A stretch of DNA of 58,874 nucleotides from Abditibacteriota bacterium (GTDB taxonomy: Bacteria; Armatimonadota; UBA5829). Location of the stretch: NCBI GenBank assembly GCA_017552965.1, contig JAFZNQ010000074.1, positions 1-58,874 on the forward strand, read 5' to 3'. Position numbers and translations under genes: made by a program. The notes under the pieces were generated by a model. That model was given only the letters and a program-made list of their open reading frames with translations. It did no database searches and was not told the origin of the DNA. Numbering within the stretch: the stretch's first letter is position 1; every line of letters starts with the position of its first letter. Shown piece by piece: positions 4,525-55,697 of the stretch.

Positions 4525-4549
4525 TATAGTTTCTCCTTTTTCCGCCTCT

Positions 4550-4994: not shown

Positions 4995-6458
4995 ATGAAC
5001 AACGAATTCTATACTCTCACGGCTCACGAGATAGCCGGGTTCATCAGGTCGCGGCAGGCTTCCGCCGAGGAAATAGCGGAGAGCTTTGCCGGCCGCATCG
5101 CCGCCACAGAAGACAGGGTCAGGGCCTACATCTCCCTGACCTGCGACGCCATGCTGGAGCAGGCGAAGGCTGTGGACAGGGACCTGGCCGCGGGCAAAGA
5201 GCTGCCCCCCCTGGCCGGGGTGCCCTGCGCCGTCAAGGACAACATGTCCACCGCCGGCGTCCTCACCACCGCCGCCTCCAGGATACTGGCGGACTACGTG
5301 CCTGTGTACAACGCCACCGCCGTCCAAAAGCTCTTTGACGGCCGGGTGCTCATGACGGGCAAGGCCAATCTGGACGAGTTTGCCATGGGCTCCTCCTGTG
5401 AAAACAGCGCCTTTTTCCCCACCCGCAACCCCTGGGACCTGTCCCGGGTCCCCGGCGGCTCCAGCGGCGGCAGCGCCGCCGCCGTGGCGGCGGATGAGTG
5501 CGCCTTTGCCCTGGGCTCCGACACCGGCGGCTCCATACGCCAGCCCGCTTCCTTCTGCGGCATAGTGGGCCTGAAGCCCACCTACGGCAGAGTGTCCCGC
5601 TACGGCCTCCTGGCCTTTGCCTCTTCCCTGGACCAGATAGGCCCCATGACCAAGGACGTCACCGACGCTGCCCTGGTCCTCAACGCCATCTGCGGCCGGG
5701 ACGTGATGGACACCACCTCCCTGCCCGCCCCTGTGCCCGACTTCACCGCGGCCCTCACCGGAGACGTGCGGGGCATGAAGATAGCCGTGCCCGGGGAATT
5801 CATGGGCAAGGGCATAGCCGAAGAGACACGCCGGGCCGTCAGCGAAGCCATGGAACGCTTCCGGGCTCTGGGAGCCACCGTGGACATGGTGTCCATGCCC
5901 AACGTGGAATACGGCCTGCCCGTCTATTACATCATCGCTCCCGCCGAGTGTTCCTCCAACCTGGCCCGCTACGACGGAGTGAAATACGGGCACAGGTCCG
6001 ACAAGTCCGTGGACACCTTCAGCATGTACAAAAAATCCCGCACCGAGGGCTTCGGCCCCGAGGTGAAGCAGAGGATCATGATAGGCACCTACGCCCTGTC
6101 CGCAGGCTACTACGACGCCTACTATCTCAAGGCCCAGAAGGTGCGCACCCTGGTCAAGGAGGACTTTGACCGGGTCTTCGCCGATTATGACGTCATCATA
6201 TCGCCCACCTCTCCCGACACCGCCTTCGGCATAGGGGAGCAGACGGACGATCCCTACACCATGAAGCTGGCGGACATCTGCACCATCCCCGCCAACCTGG
6301 CGGGCATCCCCGCCATGAGCCTGCCCTGCGGCTTTGACAGCCGCCAGCTGCCCATAGGCCTGCAGATCATGGCTCCCGCTCTGGGAGAAGAGACCATGCT
6401 GAAGGCTGCCTACGCCTTCGAGCAGACCACGGATTTCCGGAAAAAGCCGGCGTTATAG
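4995..6458 (+). CDS. gatA: Asp-tRNA(Asn)/Glu-tRNA(Gln) amidotransferase subunit A
   Basis: This is a 487-residue amidase-signature enzyme that hydrolyses glutamine and passes ammonia to GatB. The Ser-cisSer-Lys triad is visible as Lys81 in PCAVKDNMS, Ser156 in GGSSGGS and Ser180 in SDTGGSIRQP. Length and motif order match the family. A GAGG sequence precedes the ATG, and the gene is tightly coupled to gatC and gatB. The tRNA-Gln gene of the window lies 10 kb downstream under its own promoter. Confidence 0.96.
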   Translation: MNNEFYTLTAHEIAGFIRSRQASAEEIAESFAGRIAATEDRVRAYISLTCDAMLEQAKAVDRDLAAGKELPPLAGVPCAVKDNMSTAGVLTTAASRILADYVPVYNATAVQKLFDGRVLMTGKANLDEFAMGSSCENSAFFPTRNPWDLSRVPGGSSGGSAAAVAADECAFALGSDTGGSIRQPASFCGIVGLKPTYGRVSRYGLLAFASSLDQIGPMTKDVTDAALVLNAICGRDVMDTTSLPAPVPDFTAALTGDVRGMKIAVPGEFMGKGIAEETRRAVSEAMERFRALGATVDMVSMPNVEYGLPVYYIIAPAECSSNLARYDGVKYGHRSDKSVDTFSMYKKSRTEGFGPEVKQRIMIGTYALSAGYYDAYYLKAQKVRTLVKEDFDRVFADYDVIISPTSPDTAFGIGEQTDDPYTMKLADICTIPANLAGIPAMSLPCGFDSRQLPIGLQIMAPALGEETMLKAAYAFEQTTDFRKKPAL

Positions 6459-14559: not shown

Positions 14560-16653
14560 TCACTGTTTTTTCCGCAGTTTCTGCAGCCCGAGGCTGACTC
14601 TCAGCCGGGAAAAGTCCGCCATTACCCTGATCTTCAGCCTGCTCTTCCGGGACAGGGAGGGGCAGCAGTTGAAGGCCATGGGGTTCAGCACGGGCGCTCC
14701 CCTGAAGCTCACGTCCCTGAGCAGGCGGCAGCCTGCGAAGGCGTCGGGCATGATGACGCAGTTGCCGGGCAGGGACACCTTTTCCACGGCGCATTCGGTA
14801 AAGGCTCCCGCGTCGATGAACACCACGCTGTCCGGCACCCTCAGCTCCCTGATGCGGGTCCGGGCAAAGGAGCCGGCGGCCAGCACTGTGCCGTCCTCCA
14901 GCCCGGGGGCGTCCTCGGCCAGGCCTGCCGGCAGGCCGAGTATGACCTTTTGCCCGTGGCCTCCCAGGGCGCTCAGGATGTGGTTGTCGGTGCTGTAATA
15001 GGTGTTGTCTATGTGTATGGCCTTCAGCTGCTCGCCGGCGGCGAAGGCGGACTTGCCTATGTCTATGACCGACGGGGGCAAAAACACCTCCTCGACGCGC
15101 ATGCTGTTTATCATGGCCAGATGCCCGATGCGGGTGACGGTGCCGGGGATGCGCAGCACCCTGCGGTCCAGGCCGGGAGGGCAGGCTATCAGCAGGGTCA
15201 CGTCCTTGTCGTACAGGCAGCCGTCCACCTCTGTGTAATAGGGGTTCCGGGGGCTCACCCGTATCTCCTTCAGCTCCGTGCACCCTTCAAAGGGATTGAC
15301 GCCTACGTTGCTCACCGAGGCCGGTATCCACGCCTCCTTCAGATTGGGGCAGTGGGCAAAGGCCCGGGCGCCTATGGTCCTGACGCCCTCCGGTATCACC
15401 GCCTTTTCCAGGGTAAAGCACCCGGCGAAGGCCTCCGGGGCGATCTCCTTCACCGAGCCGGGAAGGCCGGTGAGGTCCAGCAGGTTGCCCTTGCCGCCCG
15501 TCACGGTCTCCTCCCGTATCCTGAACCGGTACTGCAGCTCCGACTTGTCCGCATATTCCTTGTAGTGCTCTTCCGCCAGCTGCTTCACCTCCGGTATAGA
15601 GGACACCAGCCGGACCTCCGTGTCCAGCAGGGCCGTCTCGTCCATCTCCGGCAGGGACTGCAGCACCAGCTCCTCCTGCCTGCAGGCCGGCGCGTGAAAA
15701 TTGACGAAGAGGTTGCGGCCCATGCGCTTCAGGCTGGGAGGCAGGGTGATCCTGGCGTAATCGCCGGCCACAAAGGCGTGGTCCGCTATCTCCTCCGCGC
15801 CCTCCGCCACCTTCACGTCGCAGCCGTACACTCCCAGCTGCAGATACAGGGTCTTGCCGTCCCGGGAATACACGCCTCCCTCCCGCAGCGCGTAGGGGGC
15901 GTCCTCCGGGATGCAGAGCTCCCGCAGGGCGGGGGTGTATATATTGGGCAGGTATTTGGCGGGAAAGCCCCCGGGCACGTGCACGGTCCTCAGTCTGTAG
16001 CAGCTGACGAAGGGAAAGCCCCGCACCTCCCGCAGGCTCTCGGGCAGATATACCTCCGTCAGGGGCCGGACCTCGCTGTCCAGCACCTCTCCGTCTATGA
16101 CCTGCAGCCCCTCCGGCCGGAACACCGATACGCCGGGCCGGGCCAGGCGCAGGTCCCCCTCCGGGGAATACAGGCCGTCGGCCCTCTCCGTGAAGAAGGG
16201 GTTGCCCTCCTTCACCCTCACCCGGCAGCGGGTGTGGTGAAAGGCCCGGGGCTCTATAGCGCGTACGGCCTTCCCCAGGATCACTTCCTTCAGGGCCCGG
16301 GCTCCGCAGAAGGCCTTTTTGCCTATGGTCTCGGTCCGGGGGTCCGCCTCGTAGCGGCCGGCTTTGCGGGCAGGGGGGTATTTTACCAGCCGGGTGAAGT
16401 CCCGATTGTACAGGACTCCCCCGGACGATGAAAAATAGGGGTTGTCTTTGTGGACGGAGATGCTCTCCAGAGCGGGCAGGCGGGATATGATCTCGCAGGT
16501 GACCAGGCTCTTAGGCAGGATCAGCTTCCGCACCGTGGCGTCCGGCGCCAGGTCGTCAAAGGTGATGAATTCCTGCCCCTCGGGGATGCGCACGGTCCGC
16601 ATGCGCCCGGGCTGCTCCGGGGACAGCCGGAAGCTGCTGGTGTATAACGTCAT
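14560..16653 (-). CDS. BspA-type leucine-rich repeat protein (LRR_5)
   Basis: This 697-residue protein is built of about 20 repeats of the BspA/LRR_5 type. Examples are IGKKAFCGARALKEVILGKA, IAPEAFAGCFTLEKAVIPEG and IGARAFAHCPNLKEAWIPAS. Interspersed NPYF/NPYYTEVDG segments match the 'VLY..D...L..YP' decorations of this family. No signal peptide or membrane segment is visible at either end. An AAGGAGG sequence lies 7 nt before the ATG, so the start is well supported and the protein is probably cytosolic or exported by a non-Sec route. BspA-like proteins usually mediate binding to host or other cells. The gene is monocistronic and runs opposite to both flanking regions. Confidence 0.85.
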   Translation of the reverse strand: MTLYTSSFRLSPEQPGRMRTVRIPEGQEFITFDDLAPDATVRKLILPKSLVTCEIISRLPALESISVHKDNPYFSSSGGVLYNRDFTRLVKYPPARKAGRYEADPRTETIGKKAFCGARALKEVILGKAVRAIEPRAFHHTRCRVRVKEGNPFFTERADGLYSPEGDLRLARPGVSVFRPEGLQVIDGEVLDSEVRPLTEVYLPESLREVRGFPFVSCYRLRTVHVPGGFPAKYLPNIYTPALRELCIPEDAPYALREGGVYSRDGKTLYLQLGVYGCDVKVAEGAEEIADHAFVAGDYARITLPPSLKRMGRNLFVNFHAPACRQEELVLQSLPEMDETALLDTEVRLVSSIPEVKQLAEEHYKEYADKSELQYRFRIREETVTGGKGNLLDLTGLPGSVKEIAPEAFAGCFTLEKAVIPEGVRTIGARAFAHCPNLKEAWIPASVSNVGVNPFEGCTELKEIRVSPRNPYYTEVDGCLYDKDVTLLIACPPGLDRRVLRIPGTVTRIGHLAMINSMRVEEVFLPPSVIDIGKSAFAAGEQLKAIHIDNTYYSTDNHILSALGGHGQKVILGLPAGLAEDAPGLEDGTVLAAGSFARTRIRELRVPDSVVFIDAGAFTECAVEKVSLPGNCVIMPDAFAGCRLLRDVSFRGAPVLNPMAFNCCPSLSRKSRLKIRVMADFSRLRVSLGLQKLRKKQ

Positions 16654-42670: not shown

Positions 42671-44206
42671 TTATACGTTCTCCGGGTGAGGCGTCTTGCC
42701 GCCCACTCTCTTGCGCATGATGCCCAGGAACAGCCAGACCAGTATGATGCCGGCCGCCAGGCCGATGGCCCAGTTCTTCACAAAGCCCGCTATCACAAAG
42801 GATACAAAGCTGACGGCCGCTACGGACAGGGCGTAGGGGAACTGGGTGGTCACGTGGTCGATGTGTTTGATCTGGGCTCCTGCGGAGGACATGACCGTGG
42901 TATCGGATATGGGTGAGCAGTGGTCGCCGCACACGGCGCCTGCCAGACAGGCGGAGATGCCGATGATGAGCAGCGGGTCGCCCACCTTAAAGGCTGCCAT
43001 GACTACGGGGATCATCAGGCCGAAGGTGCCCCAGGAGGTGCCTGTGGCAAAGGCCAGCGCCACCGATACTACGAATATGACTGCGGGCAGCATGTTAAAG
43101 AGGCCGGTGGAGGCGCCCATCATCAGGTGCTGGACGAAATCCGCGGCGCCCAGCGAGCCGGTGATGTTCTTCAGACCGGTGGCCAGGGTGAGGATCATAA
43201 TGGAGGGTACCATGGCGGCAAAGCCCTTGGGTATGCAGTCCATTATTTCCCGGAAGGGGATGGTCCTGCGGATCAGGAAATATATCATGGAAAGGATAAA
43301 GGCTGCAAGGCTGCCCATAGGGAGCGCTATGAAAGCGTCGGTGTTGCCGAAGGCGGCGATGATGCTGCCCATATTTTCAGTGCCCGTCCAGGGGGTCTTG
43401 CCGTAATAGCCGCCGCAGTAGAGCATGGCCACGAAGCAGATTATTATCAATACTATGACGGGCAGTATCAGGTCGATGACCTTGCCCTTGGTATCGGTCA
43501 CTTCGGTCTCGGGGGCGTCTTCGCCTCCCAGATCGCCGGCGAGAGCCTTTTCCTGGGCTTCCTTCATCTTGCCGTAGTCAAAGTCCATGGTGGTGATGAT
43601 CAGGATGAAGACCAGGGTCAGCAGCGAATAAAAGTTGTAGGGTATGGCCTGGATAAACAGCTGGATGCCGGATATGCCGCTGCCCATATCGTCAGCCACG
43701 CCGGAAACGGCGGCGGCCCAGGAGGATATGGGCGCTATCATACATATGGGCGCCGCGGTGGCGTCTATGAGGTAGGACAGCTTTGCCCGGGATATCCTGT
43801 AGCGGTCCGTGACGGAGCGCATGACGGATCCCACGGTGAGACAGTTGAAATAGTCGTCTATGAATATCAGCACGCCCAGAGCAAAGGTGGACAGCCCCGC
43901 CCCTATCCTGGACTTGATCTTTTTCTTTACCGACACGCCGAAGGCCTGGCTGCCGCCGGACTTGTTGAGCATCATCACCATGCTTCCCAGGATCACCAGG
44001 AAGATGGAGATGCCCGCCAGATCGGCCACGGGCTCGGACAAGCCCTTTATCGCTATGGTGTTAAAAGATTCTACGGGGTTGAAGCCGTTTGCCAGAAGGG
44101 CGCCTACTACTATGCCGCAGAAGAGGGAGGAATACACCTCTTTGGTCAGCAGGGCCAGAAAAATTGCTATCAGGGCAGGCAATATCGCCCAGAAAGTTCC
44201 ATCCAT
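42671..44206 (-). CDS. NhaC-family Na+/H+ antiporter
   Basis: This is a 511-residue integral membrane protein with about 11-12 helices. Family motifs are FALGVLIFIDDYFNCLTVG, LSYLIDATAAPICMIAPISSW, ALAFATGTSWGTFGLMIP and LAGAVCGDHCSPISDTT. These are characteristic of the NhaC group, which exchanges Na+ for H+ or amino-acid/organic-acid pairs. The cytosolic loop between helices (about 210-240) is acidic. It is monocistronic and divergent from the sugar-isomerase operon. The Na+-type ATP synthase elsewhere in the window makes a role in maintaining the sodium gradient plausible. Confidence 0.88.
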   Translation of the reverse strand: MDGTFWAILPALIAIFLALLTKEVYSSLFCGIVVGALLANGFNPVESFNTIAIKGLSEPVADLAGISIFLVILGSMVMMLNKSGGSQAFGVSVKKKIKSRIGAGLSTFALGVLIFIDDYFNCLTVGSVMRSVTDRYRISRAKLSYLIDATAAPICMIAPISSWAAAVSGVADDMGSGISGIQLFIQAIPYNFYSLLTLVFILIITTMDFDYGKMKEAQEKALAGDLGGEDAPETEVTDTKGKVIDLILPVIVLIIICFVAMLYCGGYYGKTPWTGTENMGSIIAAFGNTDAFIALPMGSLAAFILSMIYFLIRRTIPFREIMDCIPKGFAAMVPSIMILTLATGLKNITGSLGAADFVQHLMMGASTGLFNMLPAVIFVVSVALAFATGTSWGTFGLMIPVVMAAFKVGDPLLIIGISACLAGAVCGDHCSPISDTTVMSSAGAQIKHIDHVTTQFPYALSVAAVSFVSFVIAGFVKNWAIGLAAGIILVWLFLGIMRKRVGGKTPHPENV

Positions 44207-44286
44207 TTAATCAGTCTCCTTTGAACGGATTTATAGCGGCCCGGGTAATGGAAACGCCCGGACAGATCGCATTAACAATCAATTCT

Positions 44287-44318
44287 ATTATAGCAGTTTT
44301 CGGCCGTTTTGCAAAACC
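44287..44318 (-). promoter_or_regulatory. Promoter of the NhaC-family gene
   Basis: On the minus strand a TTGCAA-like -35 and TGCTATAAT are spaced by about 16 bp. Coordinates are approximate. Confidence 0.5.
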
Positions 44319-44375
44319 CGTATACGTATTTATGCGCCGAAAAAATTTTTGCCTTGGGTGTATAAACGGGTTGTA

Positions 44376-44384
44376 TGCTATAAT
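44376..44384 (+). promoter_or_regulatory. Extended -10 promoter of the sugar-isomerase operon
   Basis: TGCTATAAT lies 28 nt upstream of the ATG at 44413. The nearest -35-like hexamer (TTGGGT, 44354) is 19 bp away. Confidence 0.55.
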
Positions 44385-44412
44385 ATAAATAGTATTGATA
44401 CGGAGTTGAATT

Positions 44413-45258
44413 ATGATAGACGGATTGAAAACAGGCTTGCTGATCAACGGCTCCTATGCCGGCATGGAGCTCAGCGGCATCTGCAGCGATATGAAAGAGA
44501 CCGGCTACGACGCCGTAGAGCTTCTGTGGTCCCCGGGCAACGTGGCCTCCATGAAGGCCGTGGCCGAAAAGGCGGGGCTGGAGGTCTCGGAGATAGTCCT
44601 GCAGCAGGACTACATCACCCGGGATCCCGCCGACGCCGCGCGGAACCTGAGCATTTCCCTGGACTGCATCGCGGAATGCGCCGACGCCGGCGTGGACACA
44701 GTCAACGTCTTTTCCGGTCCCGCCCCCTGGATCCCCGACCCGGTCATAGTGGGAAAGGACATCTCCCAGGGCGAAGCCTGGAGACGGCTGTTTGCGGCCT
44801 TTGACGAGCTGGTCCCCTGCGCCGAGGAGAACGGGGTGTATCTGGCTCTGGAGGGGGTGTGGTGCCATCTGTGCCACGACTTCTTTACCTCCAAATATCT
44901 GGTGGACCGGTACCGGAGCGAATACCTGGGCGTGAACTTTGACCCCTCCCACGACATAGTCAGCAACAATACGGACGTGGACTTTCTCATAAAGGGCTGG
45001 GGAAAGGCCATAAAGCACATACACCTGAAGGACGCCGCGGGCATGATGGAGCCGGGCAGATTCGTATTTCCTCTGCTGGGCGAGGGCTTTGTGGACTGGA
45101 AGGCCTTCCGCAGGGCCCTGGACGATATATGCTATGCCGGCGTGTGCTCCGTGGAGTTTGAATCCGCGGGCTATCTGGTCAATTATTGCGGCGGCGATCT
45201 GAGGCAGGCGGCCCGTCTGTCCTTTGACATATTGAAAAAACTCCTAAGGAAGGAATAG
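44413..45258 (+). CDS. Sugar phosphate isomerase/epimerase family protein (xylose-isomerase-like TIM barrel)
   Basis: This 281-residue TIM-barrel protein has the AP-endonuclease-2/xylose-isomerase-like pattern. DMKETGYDAVELLW is the first strand-helix unit, and GVNFDPSHDIV and IKHIHLKDA carry metal ligands. A Glu is present in YLALEGVW and another in VEFESAGYLV. Such proteins isomerise or epimerise keto/aldo sugars or inositol derivatives. It is 2 nt upstream of a Gfo/Idh/MocA oxidoreductase, the usual partner in sugar or inositol catabolism. Confidence 0.82.
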   Translation: MIDGLKTGLLINGSYAGMELSGICSDMKETGYDAVELLWSPGNVASMKAVAEKAGLEVSEIVLQQDYITRDPADAARNLSISLDCIAECADAGVDTVNVFSGPAPWIPDPVIVGKDISQGEAWRRLFAAFDELVPCAEENGVYLALEGVWCHLCHDFFTSKYLVDRYRSEYLGVNFDPSHDIVSNNTDVDFLIKGWGKAIKHIHLKDAAGMMEPGRFVFPLLGEGFVDWKAFRRALDDICYAGVCSVEFESAGYLVNYCGGDLRQAARLSFDILKKLLRKE

Positions 45259-45260
45259 CC

Positions 45261-46277
45261 ATGGAAAAAGATCTCAAGGTATTGATGGTAGGCTGCGGCG
45301 CCATATCCTTTGTATGGTTTGAAGCCTTTGTCAAGCGCACCGACTGCCATATAGCAGGCGTGGTGGACATCAACAAACAGATGGCGCAGGAAAGAGCCGC
45401 CCAATACGGCCTCACCTGTCCCGTGTTCGACGATTTTGACACGGCCTTTGCGGCGGTGAAGCCGGACATAGTGGTGGACCTGACCTTTCCCTTCTGTCAT
45501 CACGACATCACGGTCAAGAGCCTCCGGGGCGGCGCCCACGTCTTCGGCGAAAAGCCCATGTGTCTGGACAGAGACGAGGCTCAGGACATGGTGCGGACAG
45601 CCGAGGAGACCGGCATGGTGTACAACGTGCACCAGAACCGCCGCAGCATGAAGGGCACCCGGGCCCTGAGAAAGGCCATCTCCGAGGGCCGGCTGGGCAA
45701 GATATGGATGACCTGCTGCGAGATATACGTGAACAGCGACCTCTCCAGCATCCGCAACACTCTGCCCTATCCCATGCTCCAGGACCAGGCCGTCCACAGC
45801 TTTGACAGCTGCCGGTTCATTCTGGGGGCGGACGCCGAGGCGGTCTATTGCCACAGCTACAATCCTCCCGGCTCCAAATACAACGGCGACGGCTCCGGCT
45901 GCTGCATCTTTGACATGTCCGACGGCTCCACCCTGGTGTTCAACGCCGTCATGGACACGGACTACATGAATACTCCCTGGCACTCCCAGTTCAGAGTCAT
46001 AGGCGAGATGGGGACCGCGGTCTGGGACGGCAGGGAGGACACTCTCCCTCAGGCCGAGCTGCGGCAGCCCGACGGCAGCATCCTGAAGACGGAGCTGGAG
46101 CCCGGCGACGACTGGAACGGCCTCATGTTCCATGAGTGCGGCGTGGAGGAAATGATGACCGCCCTCAAGGAGGGCAAGACCTACCACGGCTGCGGCAAGG
46201 ACAACTACAAGAGCATCGCCATGACCTTTTCGTCCATAGACAGCATCAAGGCCGGCGGCAAGGTGAAGGTGTGGTAA
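45261..46277 (+). CDS. Gfo/Idh/MocA family oxidoreductase
   Basis: This is a 338-residue NAD(P)-dependent dehydrogenase. The Rossmann start is KVLMVGCGAISFVWFEAF (GxGxxS/A type). The catalytic EKP motif appears as FGEKPMCLDRDEA, followed by YNVHQNRR. The C-terminal beta-sheet domain spans about 125-338, with DQAVHSFDSC containing the conserved His. It probably oxidises a sugar or cyclitol. It is tightly coupled to the isomerase gene and to the serine hydrolase gene that begins 1 nt after its stop. Confidence 0.88.
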   Translation: MEKDLKVLMVGCGAISFVWFEAFVKRTDCHIAGVVDINKQMAQERAAQYGLTCPVFDDFDTAFAAVKPDIVVDLTFPFCHHDITVKSLRGGAHVFGEKPMCLDRDEAQDMVRTAEETGMVYNVHQNRRSMKGTRALRKAISEGRLGKIWMTCCEIYVNSDLSSIRNTLPYPMLQDQAVHSFDSCRFILGADAEAVYCHSYNPPGSKYNGDGSGCCIFDMSDGSTLVFNAVMDTDYMNTPWHSQFRVIGEMGTAVWDGREDTLPQAELRQPDGSILKTELEPGDDWNGLMFHECGVEEMMTALKEGKTYHGCGKDNYKSIAMTFSSIDSIKAGGKVKVW

Positions 46278-46278
46278 T

Positions 46279-48051
46279 ATGACAATAGTGAAAAGATTTT
46301 GTCTGGCTGCGGCGCTGCTGCTCTGCTGCGCCGCCCTCTTTGCCCAGGAGCAGTCCATCCCCAACCTGCAAAGCGGAGACGTCAGGAACCTCCAGAGGCT
46401 CACAGCTGTCACCGACTGGCTCTACGGGATACCCGGCGGCGATTTTGAAAAGGCGGTGTTCCCCGACGTGTATTGGGGCAGCGCGGCCACGAGAGTGTCC
46501 GTGATCCCCTTTTACAACAGGGAGCACCTGTTCCGGACCTTTCCCTTTGACGAAGACCTGCCCCTGAAGGTGTGGGGCTCCATGAAGGTGGACAACGTCC
46601 GCTGGTTTGACAAGGACCAGAAGGAAGTGACCAAGCCCAATGGCTACGGCCGCTACACCGCTTACGTGGAGGCGGACATACCTGGCCTCGGCGCGGCCAA
46701 ACGGCTGTTTTTGCCCATATTCGTATATGACAACGCCGACAGGAACTGGTGGGAAAAGCTGAACGTGCCCTGGAGAAACGGCTATTTCGATCCCTCCTAT
46801 CCCAACTTTGCCGAGATAGACCCCAAGGTGTGGCATGACGGCGCCCCGGAGATACGGGACGCCTACGCCGAAGGCATCTGGAACTGGTTCTATTCGCCCC
46901 GGGGCGCGGAGCTCCTGGGGACCCTGGCAGAGGGTTACAAGGCTGACCCCAAGCAGCCCGGGCAGCTCAACAGCATAGCCTGCAGGAACGCCGAATACTA
47001 CCTGAAGCTGAAGCTCAAGGTGCTGCGGCTGACCCCCAAGGGCCTCAGAGAGCCTCAGTATCTGGAGAAAAAGGCTCCCGTCCTCCACAAGGGCTCCCTG
47101 AAGGACGCCGGCGTGACCCAGAAGGACCTGAAAAAGCTGAAGGAGTCCCTGACCGTGTGGCAAAAGGCCGTGGAATACGGCTTTCAGGTGGTCATGGCCC
47201 GCCACGGAGTGGTGGTGCTGGACGAGGTGTATCCCGGCAAGCGTGACAAGGAGCTGCTGGGCTTCAGGGTGGCAAAGGACAGCAAGCTGGAGATAGCCTC
47301 CCTGACCAAGCTGCACTCCGGGCTGCTGCTGGCCCAGTTCCTGGACCAGGGGCTCATAGGCCTGGACGACAAGGCCTCCACGTATCTGCCCGATTTTCCC
47401 ATCAGCGACAAGGTGATCACCATCCGCATGCTGAACAACCATACCACCGGCCTCTCCGGCCACGGCAATTTTGACGGTCTGGCCAATCCCTTCCTGGAGA
47501 CGGACGAGATGATAGGCAAGCAGTTCCTGAAGCCGGGCCTGGTGTCCAACTACAACGGCATGGGCTTTGACCTGTCCGGCAAGATCATGGAGGCTGTCAG
47601 CGGCAAGAGCATATACAGGCTGTTCCAGGAAAACTTTTTCCTGCCTCTGGGCAACAAGGACACCTACATCACCGACATGGGCTACGGTCTCCACTGCACC
47701 GCCATGGATATGGCCCGGATAGGCCAGCTGATGCTGAACAAGGGCTCCTACGGCGACAGGCGCTTTTTCTCCCCGGAGACCTTTGACAAGCTGACCCCCA
47801 TCCCCATCAACACCTTTGAGCCCGACGTGCAGAAGGGCGCCGACAACATGTGGGAGTACGGAGTAGGCATGATGGTGGGCGACTACGGTCTGGGCCCCGT
47901 GCTCACTCACGGCTCCGCCACCGGCTCCATCCTGCTGGTGGACCCCGGGAGAGACATGGTGTTTGCCATGGCCCGCTACGACTCCGCAGGCTATGAGAAC
48001 TGCGCCGGCGTATATAAGGCTCTGGCAGACATGATGAGGGATGCAAAATAG
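46279..48051 (+). CDS. Exported beta-lactamase-like serine hydrolase with an unusual N-terminal domain
   Basis: This 590-residue protein has a signal peptide (VKRFCLAAALLLCCAALFA). Residues about 30-270 form a domain I do not recognise, rich in Trp and Tyr (VYWGSAATRVSVIPFYN, WWEKLNVPWRNGYFDPSYP). The C-terminal half is a class C beta-lactamase/PBP-like domain: Ser341-x-x-Lys344 in SLTK, Tyr425-Asn426 in SNYNG, and His544-Gly-Ser in THGSATGS. All three motifs are present, so it is likely an active esterase, peptidase or transpeptidase-like hydrolase outside the cytoplasm. It shares an operon with the isomerase and oxidoreductase. Confidence 0.8.
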   Translation: MTIVKRFCLAAALLLCCAALFAQEQSIPNLQSGDVRNLQRLTAVTDWLYGIPGGDFEKAVFPDVYWGSAATRVSVIPFYNREHLFRTFPFDEDLPLKVWGSMKVDNVRWFDKDQKEVTKPNGYGRYTAYVEADIPGLGAAKRLFLPIFVYDNADRNWWEKLNVPWRNGYFDPSYPNFAEIDPKVWHDGAPEIRDAYAEGIWNWFYSPRGAELLGTLAEGYKADPKQPGQLNSIACRNAEYYLKLKLKVLRLTPKGLREPQYLEKKAPVLHKGSLKDAGVTQKDLKKLKESLTVWQKAVEYGFQVVMARHGVVVLDEVYPGKRDKELLGFRVAKDSKLEIASLTKLHSGLLLAQFLDQGLIGLDDKASTYLPDFPISDKVITIRMLNNHTTGLSGHGNFDGLANPFLETDEMIGKQFLKPGLVSNYNGMGFDLSGKIMEAVSGKSIYRLFQENFFLPLGNKDTYITDMGYGLHCTAMDMARIGQLMLNKGSYGDRRFFSPETFDKLTPIPINTFEPDVQKGADNMWEYGVGMMVGDYGLGPVLTHGSATGSILLVDPGRDMVFAMARYDSAGYENCAGVYKALADMMRDAK

Positions 48052-48068
48052 AAAATATCGCAGATAAT

Positions 48069-48096
48069 TTGTTTTTTCTGCCGAATGTGCTATAAT
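48069..48096 (+). promoter_or_regulatory. Promoter of the small-protein array
   Basis: TTGTTT and TATAAT with a 16-bp spacer and a TGC extension. It excludes translation from upstream in-frame starts. Confidence 0.6.
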
Positions 48097-48126
48097 ATAT
48101 ATGTATGTTTGGTTTTGGAGGACATC

Positions 48127-48360
48127 GTGAAAAAGCTGAACGAACCTAGGGTCTTTGTGCCCATTCTCATTTTGGCAGTGCTGGCTCTGCTGGTCAGCGC
48201 AGGTCGTTTCAAGAAGAGCAGCGCCGCCAGGGACAGCATCTATCTGGACGAAAAGGACCAAAAGGAGATGACAGAGGCCTTCAGGGACGGCTCGGCCTAT
48301 GAGGGCGGAGCCACCGTTCCGACTCCTCCTGCCGCTCCGGCCCCGCCTCCGGGGCAGTGA
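48127..48360 (+). CDS. Small membrane-anchored protein, array member 1
   Basis: This 77-residue protein has a GTG start behind GGAGG. Layout: a short basic N-terminus (KKLNEPR), one transmembrane helix (about 9-25), a basic linker, the motif SIYLDEKDQ..M..AF.DGSAY (37-58) and a Pro/Ala-rich tail (TPPAAPAPPPGQ). N-in topology is expected from the basic start, so motif and tail face outward. It is the first of four tandem paralogues. I recognise no known family. Confidence 0.8.
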   Translation: MKKLNEPRVFVPILILAVLALLVSAGRFKKSSAARDSIYLDEKDQKEMTEAFRDGSAYEGGATVPTPPAAPAPPPGQ

Positions 48361-48387
48361 CAGGCAGACGTATCGAGGGAGGTGTTT

Positions 48388-48627
48388 ATGCGAGGTCTCA
48401 ACAGCCCCAGGCTGGCCATCCTGCTGATGATGGTGGCCTGTGTGTGCATCCATTACAGCATAAGGATCACCGACAAGATCACCTTTAAGGAAGCCAAAAA
48501 AAGCATTGTTTTGACCAAGGAAGAGCAGGCGGGTATGGTCCGCGCCTTTGCGGACGGGTCGGCCTACACGTCGGGAGCCACTTCGCCTCCCAGACCCACG
48601 CCGCCCTCAGTCTCTCCTGCGCCCTGA
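48388..48627 (+). CDS. Small membrane-anchored protein, array member 2
   Basis: This 79-residue protein starts at the ATG at 48388 behind GGGAGG; the in-frame GTG at 48382 overlaps that site and is less likely. A transmembrane helix (about 8-24) contains two Cys residues. The motif reads SIVLTKEEQ..M..AF.DGSAY (39-60). The tail is Pro/Ser-rich (PPRPTPPSVSPAP). It is the most divergent member, with Val for Tyr in the motif. Confidence 0.8.
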   Translation: MRGLNSPRLAILLMMVACVCIHYSIRITDKITFKEAKKSIVLTKEEQAGMVRAFADGSAYTSGATSPPRPTPPSVSPAP

Positions 48628-48688
48628 CACAGGATCTTGGGCCGCAAGGCCTGATATACAAATCACTACAGAAGCATGAGGTTACAAA

Positions 48689-48928
48689 ATGCAAAAATTC
48701 AATGACCCTAAGATCGCGATCATCCTTGTCGTGGTAGCTGCGGCTCTCATCTTTGCCAGCGTCAAGTTTACCAAGAAGGTAAACCACTCCGATGCCAAGA
48801 GCAGCATCTATCTGGACGAAAAGGACCAGGAAGATATGATCAAGGCGTTCCAGGACGGCTCTGCATATTCCGTGCAGCCCGGCAATCCCAGCGCGGCTCA
48901 GCCTGCTGCTCCTGCGCCCGGTCAGTAG
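48689..48928 (+). CDS. Small membrane-anchored protein, array member 3
   Basis: This is a 79-residue protein with a transmembrane helix (8-25) and SVKFTKKVN linker. The motif SIYLDEKDQ..M..AF.DGSAY spans 39-60 and is followed by a Pro/Ala/Gln tail. A GAGG site precedes the ATG. It is nearly colinear with members 2 and 4: DGSAY falls at 56-60 in all three. Confidence 0.8.
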   Translation: MQKFNDPKIAIILVVVAAALIFASVKFTKKVNHSDAKSSIYLDEKDQEDMIKAFQDGSAYSVQPGNPSAAQPAAPAPGQ

Positions 48929-48937
48929 CTTTTTTCA

Positions 48938-48956
48938 GGGCGGGGATACCCCGCCC
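48938..48956. terminator. Perfect 8-bp GC hairpin after array member 3
   Basis: GGGCGGGG-ata-CCCCGCCC, 10 nt after the stop. The T-run lies on its 5' side, so it may instead attenuate or protect the transcript. Confidence 0.5.
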
Positions 48957-49007
48957 GTCCACATCATCAGAGAACATCCTGCCGGACTTCCGGACAGCAT
49001 AATAGCA

Positions 49008-49046
49008 GGTCGCTTTTGGGGACAGCGTGCCCTACAAAGAGCGACC
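49008..49046 (+). promoter_or_regulatory. Long hairpin in the leader of array member 4
   Basis: GGTCGCT ... TTTGGGG pairs with CCC ... CAAAG-AGCGACC, a near-continuous stem of about 13 bp ending 59 nt before the ATG at 49106. Role unknown; it may control member 4 and the GxGYxYP genes separately. Confidence 0.45.
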
Positions 49047-49105
49047 GGGTGTCTGTACTCTTTGCCGGCAGGCATGGATATCATCACGTAACACAGGAGC
49101 TTATT

Positions 49106-49351
49106 ATGAAAAAGCTGAACAAACCCTGGCTGGCCGCTGTGCTGCTCGTAGTGGCTGCCATTCTCATCTATGCCAGCGTCAAGTGGACCAACAAGGTCAC
49201 CTACAAGACCGGCAGAGACAGCATATATCTGAACAAAGAAGATCAGGAAGAGATGATCAAGGCGTTTCAGGACGGCTCGGCATATACCTCCGGCGCCGCC
49301 GGAAGCGGGCCCGCGCCCACCGCTCCTGCTCCGGAAACCAACGTGCCTTAG
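49106..49351 (+). CDS. Small membrane-anchored protein, array member 4
   Basis: This is an 81-residue protein with an ATG behind CAGGAG. The basic start KKLNKPW matches member 1, and the helix VLLVVAAILIYASVKWT matches member 3. The motif SIYLNKEDQ..M..AF.DGSAY is at 39-60. The tail is Gly/Pro/Ala-rich (AAGSGPAPTAPAP). It is separated from member 3 by 177 nt with two hairpins and followed by a terminator. Confidence 0.8.
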   Translation: MKKLNKPWLAAVLLVVAAILIYASVKWTNKVTYKTGRDSIYLNKEDQEEMIKAFQDGSAYTSGAAGSGPAPTAPAPETNVP

Positions 49352-49364
49352 CAGAGCTTTACAG

Positions 49365-49390
49365 GCCCCTCACGGGGCTTTTGTTTTTTT
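49365..49390 (+). terminator. Terminator of the small-protein array
   Basis: GCCCC-tcac-GGGGC, TTTTG, then seven or more T residues. The GxGYxYP gene starts 12 nt later, so it depends on read-through or on a promoter I cannot see. Confidence 0.75.
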
Positions 49391-49401
49391 GGAGTACATA
49401 T

Positions 49402-52305
49402 ATGAACAAGCTGATATACATCTTATTTGCGCTGCTGGTATCGGGGGCGTGCTTCGCCGACGTCATGGTCAAGGGCGCCGACCGGTTCGTCCTGTCCGGC
49501 GAGCCCTATGCCGTGTGGGAAGCGGAGAGCATGGGCAACTGGCGCACCGGCAAGACCGTGAAGGACCCGGACGCCTCCGGCGGCAAGGCCCGGTTTTGCG
49601 ACGAGAAAAACGCCGGCTCCGACCTTATGCTCTACGGCCAGTATCAGGACCTGCCCGCGGGCAAATACGTGGCAGTGTACCGCCTGAAGATCGGGAAGGA
49701 CGCCATGTTCCCCGACGATATAGCCGTCAGCCTGAACACCTCCGCCAATGCGGGAGGCGTGAACTACGGCGCCAGCCGCTTCAGAAAAAAGGACTTCAGC
49801 GCGGGCTACACCCTGTTTCCTCTGCCCTTTGAGGTGCTGGAGGGCCACAAGAGGATCGAAGCCCTGGTCCGCTGGAACCAGAACTGCGACATATGGGTGG
49901 ACAAGGTGGACATATACAAATGGGAAGGGGACCTGCCTGCCAGGCTGGACCACCAGAGCCCCATGCTGAGCGTGCTGGAGCCTCCCCTCTATCCCCGGGA
50001 CCTGGACTATGTGCCCCACGAGTTTCCCACCGAGGATATATTCCCTGTGTCCCAGTCTCCTGCCCGGCGCCTCTATGTGATAGACACCTCCAATAACCCG
50101 GTGGATATGAACCTGATGCTCACCAGTCTGCAGGGGCTGGTGAACAGAGAAAAGCCCAGGCTGTTTTTGTGCGGCGACGAGGTGGAGAAGGGCTGGCTGG
50201 ACTGGATGAAGCAGCGGGGGGACATAGACTCCTACAGCTACATCGGCGTCAGGGAGGCCCTGAAAAGATTTGCCTCCTGCTACAAGGGCGCGGTGGTCAC
50301 CGACCGCAGGATACCCGCCTCGGTGAACGCGGCCACCATGTATTCCTCTGTGTACGGGGGCCTGGTGTGCAGCGAGAGGATGCAGGAGACCTACGGTCTG
50401 CCGGTGCTCATGGATATGCGGGGCATGTTTGACAACAACGCCCAGCCCTACTACTGGGCCTGGGCCACTCTGTGGGACAAGCTGAATCACAGCGTGGCCT
50501 CCTGTCTGCACTGGGGCTGCGCCAATACCAGAGACTATCTGGTGCAGCACAAGCTCTTTGTGTTCTGGGTGCCCGGCAGGATAGACGCCGCCAGCTCCGT
50601 GTCCGACCCGGATGCCGAGATGGCCTTTGCCAACTATTTCCTCTCGCAGCTGCCCGCAAATACTCCCATTATGGGCTACCCCTGGGCCGGAGTGGACATA
50701 GGCCTGGGAGAGGGCGGAGGCGTGGGCCTCTTTGCCAAATACGGCCACTATCTGGTGGGCTCCACCAACGGCAACAATTATTCGGTCCATTCGGGCACGA
50801 AGCCCGCCGTGTTCCGGCAAAAAGAGCCCCGGAAACTGCCTCTGGAAAATGACAAGCGCTACGTGGCCTTTACCATGTCCGACGGAGACAATCTGCCGGT
50901 CATGAGCGCCGGCAACTGGCCTCAGATGTGGAAGACGGAGGACAGGGGCAAGACCCCCATCACCTGGACCATATCTCCCTCCTCCTGCGTGATGTTTCCG
51001 GACATCATGGAGTACTACTATACCACCGCCACGGATAACGACACCTTCGGAGCGGCGGTGTCCGGCGTGGGCTACACCTATCCCGCCCTGTACGGCGAGC
51101 GCTTCAAGGACAGAAAGCCCGTGTTCGAAGGCTTTTTGGCCCTCACCGACAAGTATATGAAGAAGATGGACCTGCGGGTGCTGTTCCCCATGAACGTCAC
51201 CGAAAAGGAGATAGGCATCATCGCCGAGGGAATACCCTGGCTCAAGGGGCAGTTCCCCGACTATTCCAGGAGCGTGTCCCGCTATGAGGACAGCGTCTTT
51301 CTGACCTCCGGCAATATGCCCGTCCTGCGTTCCGGGACCAGCTGGGATCCCGACAACACCGAGCCGGAATATATGGCTCAGCGTATGGCCAAGGAGCTTT
51401 TGGACTTCCCCAGCGTAAAGGAAGGGGAGCCGGCCTTTATCCACGCCTTTTTGTGGAACTGGGGCTACAAGCCCTCCATAGTGAACCGCATCACCGAGCT
51501 GGTGCCCGACAACTACGTGTTTGTCAGCGCCGAGGAGATAGCCGCTCTGGAAAAGGAATATCTGCAAAAGCAGCTCCTGACGGTGAACGTGGTGGACGAG
51601 ACCGCCTGCATAGAGGGCGCCGCCAGCGTCCTGAAGCTGAAGGTCCAGAACACCACGGACAAGCCCTTTGACGCCACCTTTGCCCTGAAGGGCGCGGACA
51701 AGGCAGAGCCTCTGACCATCACCGCAGAGCCCGGCAGGATCAGCGAATTGGAGCTCCCCTTCGTGGCGTCGGGCCCCCTGACCCTGGTGACCTCCTTTGA
51801 GGGACAGACCAGAGAGCGCAGCATCAGAGTCAACCTGTACGACAAGGCCTCCGTGCCTCAGAGCCTTGACCCGGACAAGCTGGAGCTGGTGGCCCATTAC
51901 AGCGCCGACCTGCTGAAGACCAACAACGCCGAGGTCTATACCTCGCCGGAGGGCATCAGATACAGAGCGGCCATCTGCGGCGAATCCGAAGACGGCGCCA
52001 TCATCTTCGGCCCCTACGCGCTCTTTGACCCGGGCCGCTACGTGGCTGTGTACAACCTGATGAGGCTGGACGAAAAGGGCGAGGCAGAGGGAGTCTGCGA
52101 GCTGGATATAGTTCCCGCCGCTTCCCGGGACAGAGTGTTTGACAAAAAGCTCTACCGCAAGGACCTGCCCGTGGGCAGGAAGGTCACGGTCTACGCTCCC
52201 ATCGAATGGAACAGCGACAAGGGGCTGGAGACCAGAGTCTTCTGGCAGGCGGACAAGGATTCCATGAGAGTGGACGGAGTGAGCATTTTCAGAATAAAGG
52301 ACTGA
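49402..52305 (+). CDS. Secreted GxGYxYP-family protein, paralogue 1
   Basis: This 967-residue protein starts at the ATG behind GGAG; a much longer in-frame upstream extension runs through the array gene and terminator and is rejected. A signal peptide (NKLIYILFALLVSGACFA) precedes a beta-sandwich resembling a carbohydrate-binding module (about 35-175). The GxGYxYP N-terminal domain follows (LMLTSLQGLVNREKPRLFL), then the GxGYxYP C-terminal domain with SDGDNLPV and the eponymous GVGYTYP at 555-561. The C-terminus repeats a sandwich similar to the first (PGRYVAVYNL versus AGKYVAVYRL). The family is a putative glycoside hydrolase of unproven activity, common in glycan-degrading gut bacteria. Confidence 0.87.
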   Translation: MNKLIYILFALLVSGACFADVMVKGADRFVLSGEPYAVWEAESMGNWRTGKTVKDPDASGGKARFCDEKNAGSDLMLYGQYQDLPAGKYVAVYRLKIGKDAMFPDDIAVSLNTSANAGGVNYGASRFRKKDFSAGYTLFPLPFEVLEGHKRIEALVRWNQNCDIWVDKVDIYKWEGDLPARLDHQSPMLSVLEPPLYPRDLDYVPHEFPTEDIFPVSQSPARRLYVIDTSNNPVDMNLMLTSLQGLVNREKPRLFLCGDEVEKGWLDWMKQRGDIDSYSYIGVREALKRFASCYKGAVVTDRRIPASVNAATMYSSVYGGLVCSERMQETYGLPVLMDMRGMFDNNAQPYYWAWATLWDKLNHSVASCLHWGCANTRDYLVQHKLFVFWVPGRIDAASSVSDPDAEMAFANYFLSQLPANTPIMGYPWAGVDIGLGEGGGVGLFAKYGHYLVGSTNGNNYSVHSGTKPAVFRQKEPRKLPLENDKRYVAFTMSDGDNLPVMSAGNWPQMWKTEDRGKTPITWTISPSSCVMFPDIMEYYYTTATDNDTFGAAVSGVGYTYPALYGERFKDRKPVFEGFLALTDKYMKKMDLRVLFPMNVTEKEIGIIAEGIPWLKGQFPDYSRSVSRYEDSVFLTSGNMPVLRSGTSWDPDNTEPEYMAQRMAKELLDFPSVKEGEPAFIHAFLWNWGYKPSIVNRITELVPDNYVFVSAEEIAALEKEYLQKQLLTVNVVDETACIEGAASVLKLKVQNTTDKPFDATFALKGADKAEPLTITAEPGRISELELPFVASGPLTLVTSFEGQTRERSIRVNLYDKASVPQSLDPDKLELVAHYSADLLKTNNAEVYTSPEGIRYRAAICGESEDGAIIFGPYALFDPGRYVAVYNLMRLDEKGEAEGVCELDIVPAASRDRVFDKKLYRKDLPVGRKVTVYAPIEWNSDKGLETRVFWQADKDSMRVDGVSIFRIKD

Positions 52306-52311
52306 TATAGC

Positions 52312-55209
52312 ATGAACAGGATCTGTATTTTGGTTCTGTGCCTTTTGTCCGCGCCTCTGCTGGCGGACGGATTTGTCAAAAGCGGCGAACCCTTGAAAGC
52401 GCAGCTTTCGGGTTCGCCCGTTGCCGTGTGGGAGGCCGAGGCTGCGGCAGCCCCGAAGGCGGGCAGGACAGTCCGGGACCCCGGGGCCTCCGGCGGCAAG
52501 GCGCGGTATTTCAGAGTGGAGGACGCCCCGAAGGGGCCCCTCTTTTGCGGACAGACGGGGGAGCTGCAGCCGGGTAAATATATAGCCGTATTCCGCATAA
52601 AGATAGACAGGGACTATTCCTATCCCGAGGACACTGCCGTCCGCGTGGGCGTGACCGCCAACAAGGGCAGCGTTGACCGGGGGGAAAGCCGGTATGTGTT
52701 CGGCGATTTCAGCGGCGGCTGGGACCTGGCGCCCTTCCCCTTCGAGGTGCGGGAAGGCGAGAGCAGCATAGAAGCCCTGGTGAAGGGCAGCCCCGCCTGC
52801 GACGTGTGGGTGGATAAGGCCGAGATATACCTCTGCGACGGGCCTCTCCCCGGGCGGCCGGCCCCCAAGTCCAAAAGGGCGGAATACGTGGAGCCCGGAG
52901 AATATCCCCGGGGGCTTGCCTACACTCCCGCTGCGCCGGGAGAGGGGGATATTTTCCCCGTGTCACAGCCCGTGTCACGGCAGCTCTATGCCATAGACTG
53001 CGAGGGCCGGGATTATGACCAGCTGATGCTGACCAGCCTGCAGGGGCTGGTGAACAGAGAAAAGCCCCGGCTCTTTCTGGCCGGCGGCAGGGAAAAGAAA
53101 TGGCTCGGCTGGCTCGTGGAGCGGGGCGACGTGGACAGGGTGACCTGGATCACTCCCCGTCAGGCCCTCCGGCGTTTTGCAAAGTATTACAGGGGCGCTG
53201 TGATCACAGACCGCAGGATACCCGCCACGGTGAACGCGGCCACCATGTATGCCGCCGTTTACGGCGGGCTGGTGTGCTCCGAGAGAACGGCGGCTGAATA
53301 CGGCCTGCCTGCGCTGATGGACTTGCGGGGCATGTTCCACAACGACGCCGAAGCCTACTACCGGGCCTGGGCAGACCTGTGGGACAAGCTGGATCACTCC
53401 GTGTCCTGCTGTCTCCACAGCAGCATCACCAGCCCCAGGGATTATATAGTGCAGCACAAGCTCTTTGTGTTCTGGGCGCCGGGGGTGCTGGACGGAGCCC
53501 TGACTCCCGCAGACCAGAAAAGAGACCTGGCTTTTGTGAACTTTTTGCTGTCCCGCCTGCCGGCAAATACCCCCATACTGGGCTATCCCTACGCCGGTGA
53601 AGGCATCGGTATAGGCGAAGGGGGCGGAGTGGGCCTCTTTGCCCGCTACGGACACTTTTTGGTGCCCTCCGACTTCAGCAACAATCTGTCGGTCCATTCC
53701 GGAGCCCGCAGAGCGGAGCTCAGGCAAAGGGAGCCCCGGCAGCTGACCCCGGAGCCCGGCAAGCGCTACGTGGCCTTTACCATGTCCGACGGCGACAACC
53801 TGCAGGTGCTGGCCAACGGCGGCTGGGCCTGGGATTCGGAGGACAGGGGCAAGGTGCCCATCACCTGGAACATATCCCCCTCGTCTTCCATGCTGATCCC
53901 GGATATAGCCGACTATTACTACTCCACCGCCACGGACAAGGACTCCTTCGGAGCGGCAGTGTCCGGAGTGGGCTACACCTATCCCGCCCTTTACGGCGAA
54001 AGGTTTGCGGAGGCGGGGCCCGTGTTTGACGGCTTTTTGGCCCTCACCGACAAATATATGCGGCGGATGGACCTGCGCGTGCTGGCTCCCATGGGAGTCA
54101 CGGAAAAGGAGATAGCCCTGATAGCCCAGGGGCTCCCCGGCATCAAAGGAATGGTGCCGGACTATGCCCGAAGCAGAGAGGTCACCCGCTACGAAGACAG
54201 CGTGTTTCTGACCTCCGGCAATATGCCTGTGATCAGGGCCGGCACGAGCATGGGGCCCGACAGCGGCGGCCCGGAGGAAAAGGCCCGCTTTACCGCCCGG
54301 GAGATCAGTGAGTTTCCCGACGTGCCGGAGGACGAGCCGGCCTTTGTCCACGCCTTTTTGTGCAACTGGGGCTACGGTCCCTCCATAGTGAAGCGTATAG
54401 CCGAGCTGCTGCCGGAGAACTGGGAGTGCGTGAGCGCCGAGGAGCTGGCCCTTTTGGAAAAGGCATATATGCGGGAGAAGATGCTGATGGTGAACGCGCC
54501 GTCGGAAGTCGCCTGCATAGAAGGGGTCCCCTGCGCCATGGAGCTGAAGCTGCAGAACACCTCCGACAGCCCCTTTGAAGCGATGATAGACCTGAAGGGC
54601 GTCACAGGCTTTGAGCCTGTGCGTATGACTCTGGAGCCCGGGAAGCGGGAGGTCCTGCCAGTGGAGCTGGCGCCCGCCGGCAGCCGCGTCACCCTGGAGG
54701 TGTCCTTTGAGGGCCGCGCGCTGACCCGGGAGATCATTGCCAATCTCTACGACCCCGCCTCCCTCCCGGCAGGGCTGGACCCCGCCCGGCTGGAGCTGGT
54801 GGCCCACTACAACGCCGCCGATATGCAGAGCATCAATGCGGAGGTCTATACCTCGGAGGAGGGGACCCGGTACAGGGCGGCCATCAACGGCGAGTCAAAG
54901 GACGGAGCCATCGTGTTCGGGCCCTACAAAGCCCTGGAGAAGGGCCGCTACGCGGCCGTCTATAACCTGGTGAGACTGGACGAAAAGGGCAAGAGCGACC
55001 GAGTGTGCACCCAGGATATAGCCGCCGAGGGAAGGACCCTGACCGAAAAGGAGCTCTTCCGCCGGGATCTGCCCCTGGGCAAACGGGTCACTCTCTACGC
55101 TCCCATCGACTGGGACAGCAAGAACGGTCTGGAGACCCGGATATTCTGGGACAAGGACAACGATTCGCTGAGAGTGGACGGAGTGAGCATCTTCCGCGTC
55201 GGGGATTGA
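52312..55209 (+). CDS. Secreted GxGYxYP-family protein, paralogue 2
   Basis: This 965-residue protein lies 6 nt downstream of paralogue 1 and matches it end to end. It has a signal peptide (NRICILVLCLLSAPLLA), an N-terminal sandwich, LMLTSLQGLVNREKPRLFL, MSDGDNLQV, GVGYTYP at 552-558 and a C-terminal sandwich with the same KGRYAAVYNLVRLDEKG element. The N-terminal sandwich is the most diverged part, so the two proteins may bind different glycans but share the catalytic plan. Co-translation is likely. Confidence 0.87.
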   Translation: MNRICILVLCLLSAPLLADGFVKSGEPLKAQLSGSPVAVWEAEAAAAPKAGRTVRDPGASGGKARYFRVEDAPKGPLFCGQTGELQPGKYIAVFRIKIDRDYSYPEDTAVRVGVTANKGSVDRGESRYVFGDFSGGWDLAPFPFEVREGESSIEALVKGSPACDVWVDKAEIYLCDGPLPGRPAPKSKRAEYVEPGEYPRGLAYTPAAPGEGDIFPVSQPVSRQLYAIDCEGRDYDQLMLTSLQGLVNREKPRLFLAGGREKKWLGWLVERGDVDRVTWITPRQALRRFAKYYRGAVITDRRIPATVNAATMYAAVYGGLVCSERTAAEYGLPALMDLRGMFHNDAEAYYRAWADLWDKLDHSVSCCLHSSITSPRDYIVQHKLFVFWAPGVLDGALTPADQKRDLAFVNFLLSRLPANTPILGYPYAGEGIGIGEGGGVGLFARYGHFLVPSDFSNNLSVHSGARRAELRQREPRQLTPEPGKRYVAFTMSDGDNLQVLANGGWAWDSEDRGKVPITWNISPSSSMLIPDIADYYYSTATDKDSFGAAVSGVGYTYPALYGERFAEAGPVFDGFLALTDKYMRRMDLRVLAPMGVTEKEIALIAQGLPGIKGMVPDYARSREVTRYEDSVFLTSGNMPVIRAGTSMGPDSGGPEEKARFTAREISEFPDVPEDEPAFVHAFLCNWGYGPSIVKRIAELLPENWECVSAEELALLEKAYMREKMLMVNAPSEVACIEGVPCAMELKLQNTSDSPFEAMIDLKGVTGFEPVRMTLEPGKREVLPVELAPAGSRVTLEVSFEGRALTREIIANLYDPASLPAGLDPARLELVAHYNAADMQSINAEVYTSEEGTRYRAAINGESKDGAIVFGPYKALEKGRYAAVYNLVRLDEKGKSDRVCTQDIAAEGRTLTEKELFRRDLPLGKRVTLYAPIDWDSKNGLETRIFWDKDNDSLRVDGVSIFRVGD

Positions 55210-55227
55210 GGCCGGCGAGGCATACGG

Positions 55228-55252
55228 CAGCCCCGAAAGGGGCTGTTTTTTT
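55228..55252 (+). terminator. Terminator after the GxGYxYP pair
   Basis: CAGCCCC-gaaa-GGGGCTG followed by seven T residues. Confidence 0.92.
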
Positions 55253-55300
55253 GCGCGGGCCGGCCCGGGGGCCCGCCGTCATCCCGGCGGTCAATAAAGA

Positions 55301-55345
55301 CGTCATCTCGGCGGTTTTGACGTCAGGCAAAACCGGTAAGAGATC
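55301..55345 (+). repeat. CGTCATCTC hairpin element, copy 7 (short form)
   Basis: CGTCATCTCGGC, stem GGTTTTG-acgtcagg-CAAAACC, GGTAAGAGATC, then CCCCTTCAGACTGTCG as after copy 1. Confidence 0.85.
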
Positions 55346-55460
55346 CCCTTCAGACTGTCGCCATTGCCCCGGCACGGCACCATACTCACCGCCGGGGGTA
55401 AGTATGTTTTGTCCCGTTGGGCCGGTCCGTGGCCTGGGCTCGCGGTTCGTCCACACCCCG

Positions 55461-55568
55461 CGTCATCTCGGCCCAAATTTCGGGGTCCCCGAAAAATCGC
55501 AGATTTTTTGGGGTGAAAATCGCAACATATGTAATGCGTTAGCATTACGCGATTTGGGGTAAGAGATC
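55461..55568 (+). repeat. CGTCATCTC hairpin element, copy 8 (long form with insert)
   Basis: Outer stem CCCAAAT/ATTTGGG, then an insert of about 37 nt beginning TTCGGGGTCCCCGAAAAATC. Then ATCGC, bulge AACATAT, inner stem GTAATGC/GCATTAC, and GCGATTTGGGG. It ends with GGTAAGAGATC. The insert is shared with copy 9. Confidence 0.85.
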
Positions 55569-55697
55569 TACGGTGGGGCCCGCCAGCCCATTCCTTACTC
55601 TGCCAACGGCAGAGAGGGCTGGTGGGAGGGGCCGTATCGCGGGGTTGCGGAGTTCTCGGGAGAGCGCTTTCCGTTTTTCCCGCTGCCCCGGCGGCGC

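Follow-up and report, generated by a model that had tools for sequence, protein, structure and literature searches.

Four tandem genes for small bitopic membrane proteins of a genus-restricted family ahead of GxGYxYP genes in a rumen Abditibacteriota genome

One contig of the Abditibacteriota assembly GCA_017552965.1 (JAFZNQ010000074.1, here contig C74; genome size 2.78 Mb) carries four very small genes in a row, all predicted to encode membrane proteins with a common motif. Such an array raises the question of whether these are real genes under selection, how widely their family is distributed and what the proteins might do at the membrane. We analyzed the whole stretch of 58,874 nucleotides, hereafter called the window, starting from an earlier note that had described the array from the letters alone. 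The features of the locus are collected in Table 1.

A family of small membrane proteins confined to one genus

The array is built as the earlier note had described it: four consecutive genes of the lengths given in Table 1 lie between 48127 and 49351, and each is preceded by its own Shine-Dalgarno-like sequence (TTGGAGGACATCGTG, GGGAGGTGTTTATG, ATGAGGTTACAAAATG and CAGGAGCTTATTATG for genes 1 to 4, respectively). All four proteins present one transmembrane (TM) helix, a shared motif whose last residue is number 58 in gene 1 and 60 in genes 2-4, and a Pro/Ala-rich tail. Gene 1 could also be read from a further in-frame ATG at 48085, but the -10 box of the promoter falls within that extension, which makes the GTG at 48127 the likely start. 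When gene 4 was used as a query against its own genome, genes 1-3 were the only matches (E from 2.9e-13 to 1.8e-21); the likeness among the four proteins is far above chance.

Table 1. Features of the array and of the surrounding block in the window, with counterparts in the yak-rumen genome G002 (L014 coordinates)
Feature	Position	Strand	Remarks
Xylose-isomerase-like TIM barrel protein	44413-45258	+	First gene of the conserved block; extended -10 at 44376
Gfo/Idh/MocA oxidoreductase	45261-46277	+	Conserved block
Exported serine hydrolase, Beta-lactamase family PF00144	46279-48051	+	Upstream neighbor; G002 orthologue 86% identical
Extended -10 promoter of the array, TGCTATAATA	48088-48097	+	Match to TGNTATAATA
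Small membrane protein 1	48127-48360	+	77 aa, GTG start; orthologue L014 5212-5430
Small membrane protein 2	48388-48627	+	79 aa; orthologue third in the yak array, L014 5768/5834-6100
Small membrane protein 3	48689-48928	+	79 aa; orthologue second in the yak array, L014 5481-5711
GC-rich hairpin	48938-48957	+	In the gap behind gene 3; likeness at L014 ~5720-5741, behind the gene 3 orthologue
Small membrane protein 4	49106-49351	+	81 aa; orthologue L014 6116-6361
Intrinsic-terminator-like hairpin with T-run	49363-49390	+	Abuts the next ribosome site; probable attenuator; same layout at L014 6378-6414
Secreted GxGYxYP-family protein 1	49402-52305	+	967 aa; Pfam PF14323, PF16216, PF20957, PF20958
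Secreted GxGYxYP-family protein 2	52312-55209	+	965 aa; Pfam; begins 7 bases past the preceding gene

We searched for known families in Pfam-A, NCBIfam and PHROGs and for structures among PDB chains. The best E-values in the three libraries were 0.018, 0.0061 and 0.0086, respectively, short of the cut-offs where cut-offs were shown, and the profile search of PDB returned 0 matches up to an E-value of 10. The earlier note knew of no family with the SI(Y/V)L...DGSAY motif, and in these libraries indeed no family or characterized domain matched. When about 85,000 species genomes were scanned for the motif pattern, a single match came up outside the source, a yak-rumen Abditibacteriota MAG. The profile search, which covered 61 relatives and genomes of the class (28) and the phylum (291), added only G002, a genome of the same genus whose contig C17 has the same match positions as the yak-rumen MAG. 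A further genome of the genus, G001 (91% complete), has neither the array nor the serine hydrolase nor any GxGYxYP gene, and viral contigs, phages and plasmids contained no relatives of the array proteins. Two further matches were rejected as far weaker than the family: one in G013 (E 0.006, within a 597-residue open frame) and one in G014 (E 0.04), where the surrounding ORFs include no comparable small membrane gene. The four proteins thus belong to a family of small bitopic membrane proteins that is new and restricted to one genus.

Across the 291 genomes, the only further profile match at E < 0.005 was a protein of 66 residues in G002 (E 9.6e-5). This distant cousin is a single-copy protein of 65-66 residues in both genomes (L058 1334-1534, plus strand, in G002; L059 236-433, minus strand, in the window's genome) and is related to the family by profile-profile comparison (E 4e-7, probability 92.7), mainly through its TM helix. 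It shares with the family N-P-K before the TM helix, small residues at TM positions P+10 and P+17, a (S/T)PED sequence replacing the EDQ region and a Pro/Ala tail, here ending in PQ. In contrast to the array proteins, it has no SIxL/DGSAY motif, is present in single copy and follows a DUF1559/N_methyl pseudopilin-like gene, beginning about 14 bases past it in both genomes. Such a neighbor was found at 1 of the 16 DUF1559 genes of the window's genome; a general link between DUF1559 pseudopilins and small genes was therefore rejected as a rule, and the link of the cousin is specific. In L059, a strong terminator-like hairpin lies downstream of the cousin.

Orthology and purifying selection

In G002, the four genes occupy the same place within the same block and are one-to-one orthologues of the window's genes, in the order 1, 3, 2, 4. 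The tree pairs genes 1, 2 and 3 of the window with yak genes 1, 3 and 2 (support of 100/100, 99/99 and 89/86, respectively); gene 4 and yak gene 4 are unresolved in the tree and were paired by best identity (64%) and position. This one-to-one orthology indicates that the quadruplication is older than the split of the two species and that the two middle genes have swapped places. The gene 2 orthologue (L014 5768-6100) possibly has an N-terminal extension, 22 residues long, ahead of the conserved start.

The orthologues are 61-77% identical, depending on the alignment. Their mismatches at codon positions 1, 2 and 3 number 79, 51 and 156 over 306 codons (p ~3e-14), and this pattern demonstrates that the genes are coding. 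By NG86, dN is 0.21-0.33 and dS ranges from about 1 to saturation; the resulting dN/dS of about 0.07-0.25 is a rough value, dS being near or beyond saturation. The array genes are under purifying selection and decay is excluded. Decaying duplicates, the counter-reading that the earlier note had raised, and non-coding duplicates, for either of which only the small size of the genes could speak, are rejected: the codon-position pattern, the orthology and the selection make the chance of such a reading negligible.

The conserved block and its transcription

The whole block, from the TIM-barrel gene to the second GxGYxYP gene (44413 to 55209), is collinear in G002. Its flanks differ: on the left, a Na+/H+ antiporter in the window versus a glycosidase-like ORF in G002; on the right, G002 has a repeat protein that shows no relation to the right neighbor in the window. 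Elsewhere in the window (14560-16653, minus strand), a large repeat protein matches the repeat proteins at L082 12313-16808 (minus strand), whose LPEGVTEIGDGAFAGC-like units resemble, by eye, BspA-type leucine-rich repeat surface proteins. A search of Rfam over positions 44000-55600 gave no match.

GxGYxYP proteins are putative glycoside hydrolases of polysaccharide utilization loci (PMC4071793), and a term search of the text of that paper found no mention of small membrane partners. We counted 24 GxGYxYP match places in the window's genome, 16 in G002 and none in G001; this putative hydrolase family is strongly expanded. A third close homologue (G002:C284; 60% identity) lacks any small gene of this kind within 1.5 kb, which led us to reject a general link between GxGYxYP genes and small genes, and the other genomes of the taxonomic family that have GxGYxYP genes contain no member of the array family anywhere. 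These homologues without small neighbors indicate that GxGYxYP enzymes do not generally need the array; the linkage seen here rests on one comparison, between the two genomes with the array.

The promoter consensus TGNTATAATA has 8 matches in the window versus 0.09 expected (e.g., at 4549, 38951, 44286, 44376, 48088 and 58543), and this excess suggests that it is probably the dominant promoter type of the organism. The sites lie mostly just upstream of genes. The copy at 48088 stands immediately before gene 1, has a counterpart ahead of the orthologous array (L082 5175) and includes the sole exact plus-strand TATAAT from 44385 to the end of the window. At the other end of the array, the terminator-like hairpin recurs in G002 at the same place with a different loop; by the terminator scan alone, about as many such sites arise in shuffled sequences. 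Only about 11 bases separate this site from the ATG of the first GxGYxYP gene (49402). This leaves no room for a promoter between them, which makes read-through from the array promoter probable. The array is thus probably the leader of a GxGYxYP operon with attenuated read-through, a reading based on where the site lies and on its presence in both genomes. With the terminator-like site preceding the enzymes, their level would be lower than that of the small proteins. The GC-rich hairpin is found behind gene 3 and behind its orthologue despite the changed gene order, and could be an mRNA-stability element.

Protein layout and possible function

All four proteins share the same layout: a short polar N-terminus with N-x-P, a hydrophobic helix, a basic stretch, the motif segment SI(Y/V)L..(D/E)Q..M..AF.DGSAY and a tail in which Pro, Ala and Gly make up 52-74% of the residues. 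The residues invariant in all four are, in gene 1 numbering, M1, N5, P7, A17, S24, K30, S37, I38, L40, Q45, M48, A51, F52, D54-G55-S56-A57-Y58 and P75. Of the segments compared between orthologues, the motif is on the whole the best preserved (identity of 73-86%, versus 37-84% for the TM helix and 57-65% for the tail). AlphaFold models the TM helix at residues 7-40 and, after an interruption at SIYL, another helix at 44-56 that reaches DGSAY; the mean pLDDT is 62, which is low confidence.

The helix had been described as divergent between members. This holds, yet an N-x-P still precedes it and its interior keeps an A-x6-A-x6-S/C/T spacing, in which the first position is Phe in gene 1 and its orthologue. 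Comparing ten TM sequences (the eight members and the two distant cousins), we found a small residue in at least 8 of 10 sequences only at positions P+3, P+10 and P+17, seven residues apart. Three such positions in 17 columns would show this seven-spacing in about 0.4% of placements, the ten sequences being related and not independent. We read these small residues as a predicted helix-packing face; a single TM helix with a conserved small-residue face, as seen in the AlphaFold model and the alignment, fits the small bitopic oligomerizing kind. The motif helix is not clearly amphipathic: 9-55% of shuffled sequences equaled or exceeded its helical moment, which in most cases lay slightly above the mean of the shuffles but never to a significant extent. 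The earlier suggestion of a binding or oligomerization role therefore divides: oligomerization is plausible, since the small TM residues are kept across sequences, whereas the moments of the motif helix lend no support to binding.

The charges flanking the TM helix are nearly balanced, so that sidedness is not set by charge. The segment after the helix carries +2 to +3 in all eight proteins; it is more charged than the N-terminal side in four of them, and in the remaining four the two sides are equal or the difference points the other way. We slightly prefer an outside location of the C-terminus because the Pro/Ala tail is uncharged, such tails being more usual outside, and because the cousin adjoins a pseudopilin-like gene.

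The explanation that we tentatively favor is that the array encodes lineage-specific oligomerizing small bitopic subunits that would serve a secreted carbohydrate-enzyme locus. Each protein would insert by its single TM helix, with the A-x6-A-x6-S/C/T face packing against itself or a sister. The SIxL-helix-AFxDGSAY segment, just outside the membrane, might be the contact site for a common partner, and the uncharged Pro/Ala tail a flexible spacer. A single promoter would drive the array and, through the terminator, the two GxGYxYP enzymes, leaving the small proteins in excess. What speaks most strongly against this explanation is the close GxGYxYP paralogue in G002 with no small genes beside it. 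It is somewhat unlikely that the array instead acts independently in the envelope, for example as a membrane or surface-structure component, and was simply inherited beside carbohydrate genes. Its own promoter and terminator-like site would fit this, as would the cousin, which in both genomes sits 14 bases behind a DUF1559 gene and not near GxGYxYP, and the GxGYxYP paralogue without small neighbors; however, the block was kept while both its flanks changed, and no other promoter is visible for the GxGYxYP genes. More doubtful is the reverse orientation (N-out, C-in), with a cytoplasmic C-terminal part regulating a transporter, a signaling protein or another membrane protein. The positive segment behind the helix, above the N-terminal side in half of the proteins, agrees with it, and only about 7 N-terminal residues would have to be translocated. 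The charge difference that vanishes or reverses in the other half argues against it, as do the possible N-terminal extension of the third yak gene and the tail composition.

A more elaborate form of the favored explanation, a hetero-oligomeric membrane platform that would dock the GxGYxYP hydrolases and the serine hydrolase via DGSAY, with the terminator setting its excess, we consider improbable; if true, it would represent a new type of enzyme-anchoring device in rumen Abditibacteriota. The position of the cousin directly behind the N_methyl/DUF1559 gene in both genomes would also fit small membrane partners of DUF1559 proteins in a type II/IV pseudopilin-like system, but that neighborhood is the exception among DUF1559 genes, the window's contig has no DUF1559 match and the cousin resembles the family mainly in the TM helix, without DGSAY, and we regard this reading as quite improbable. 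Short hydrophobic toxins, holin-like or mobile-element proteins are very improbable: the size, the single TM helix and the order change in the array would suit them, but no PHROG family rose above noise, nothing matched in viruses, phages or plasmids, and the genes show stable one-to-one orthology in a metabolic block and a long soluble motif.

These results add a small-protein family that lies outside the libraries searched, is restricted to one uncultured rumen genus and is backed by orthologues and purifying selection, not by ORF prediction alone. The operon layout ties the array to putative glycoside hydrolases. Should its proteins anchor or organize these enzymes, they would indicate how a poorly known phylum keeps secreted polysaccharide enzymes at the envelope; if they do not, they offer a clean case of ancient, selected small membrane paralogues.

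Known systems that the array might resemble were compared feature by feature, and pilins, Tat subunits and holins were rejected on the features tested. The G-F-(S/T)-L-x-E cleavage motif of type IV pilins and pseudopilins is absent from all eight sequences, and Rz-like spanin and holin PHROGs appeared at E 0.12-0.14 only. TatA/TatE offer a works-like analogy, with a short N-terminus, a TM helix, a second helix and a flexible tail; in contrast, the second helix of the array proteins is not clearly amphipathic and no Tat model was among the Pfam and NCBIfam matches. CydX, KdpF and AcrZ are general examples of small accessory membrane subunits. The array proteins resemble such subunits in having fewer than 100 residues and one TM helix and in being encoded with larger proteins that they possibly serve. 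They differ in that no sequence relation was found and in that the array consists of four paralogues with a conserved 22-residue extramembrane motif.
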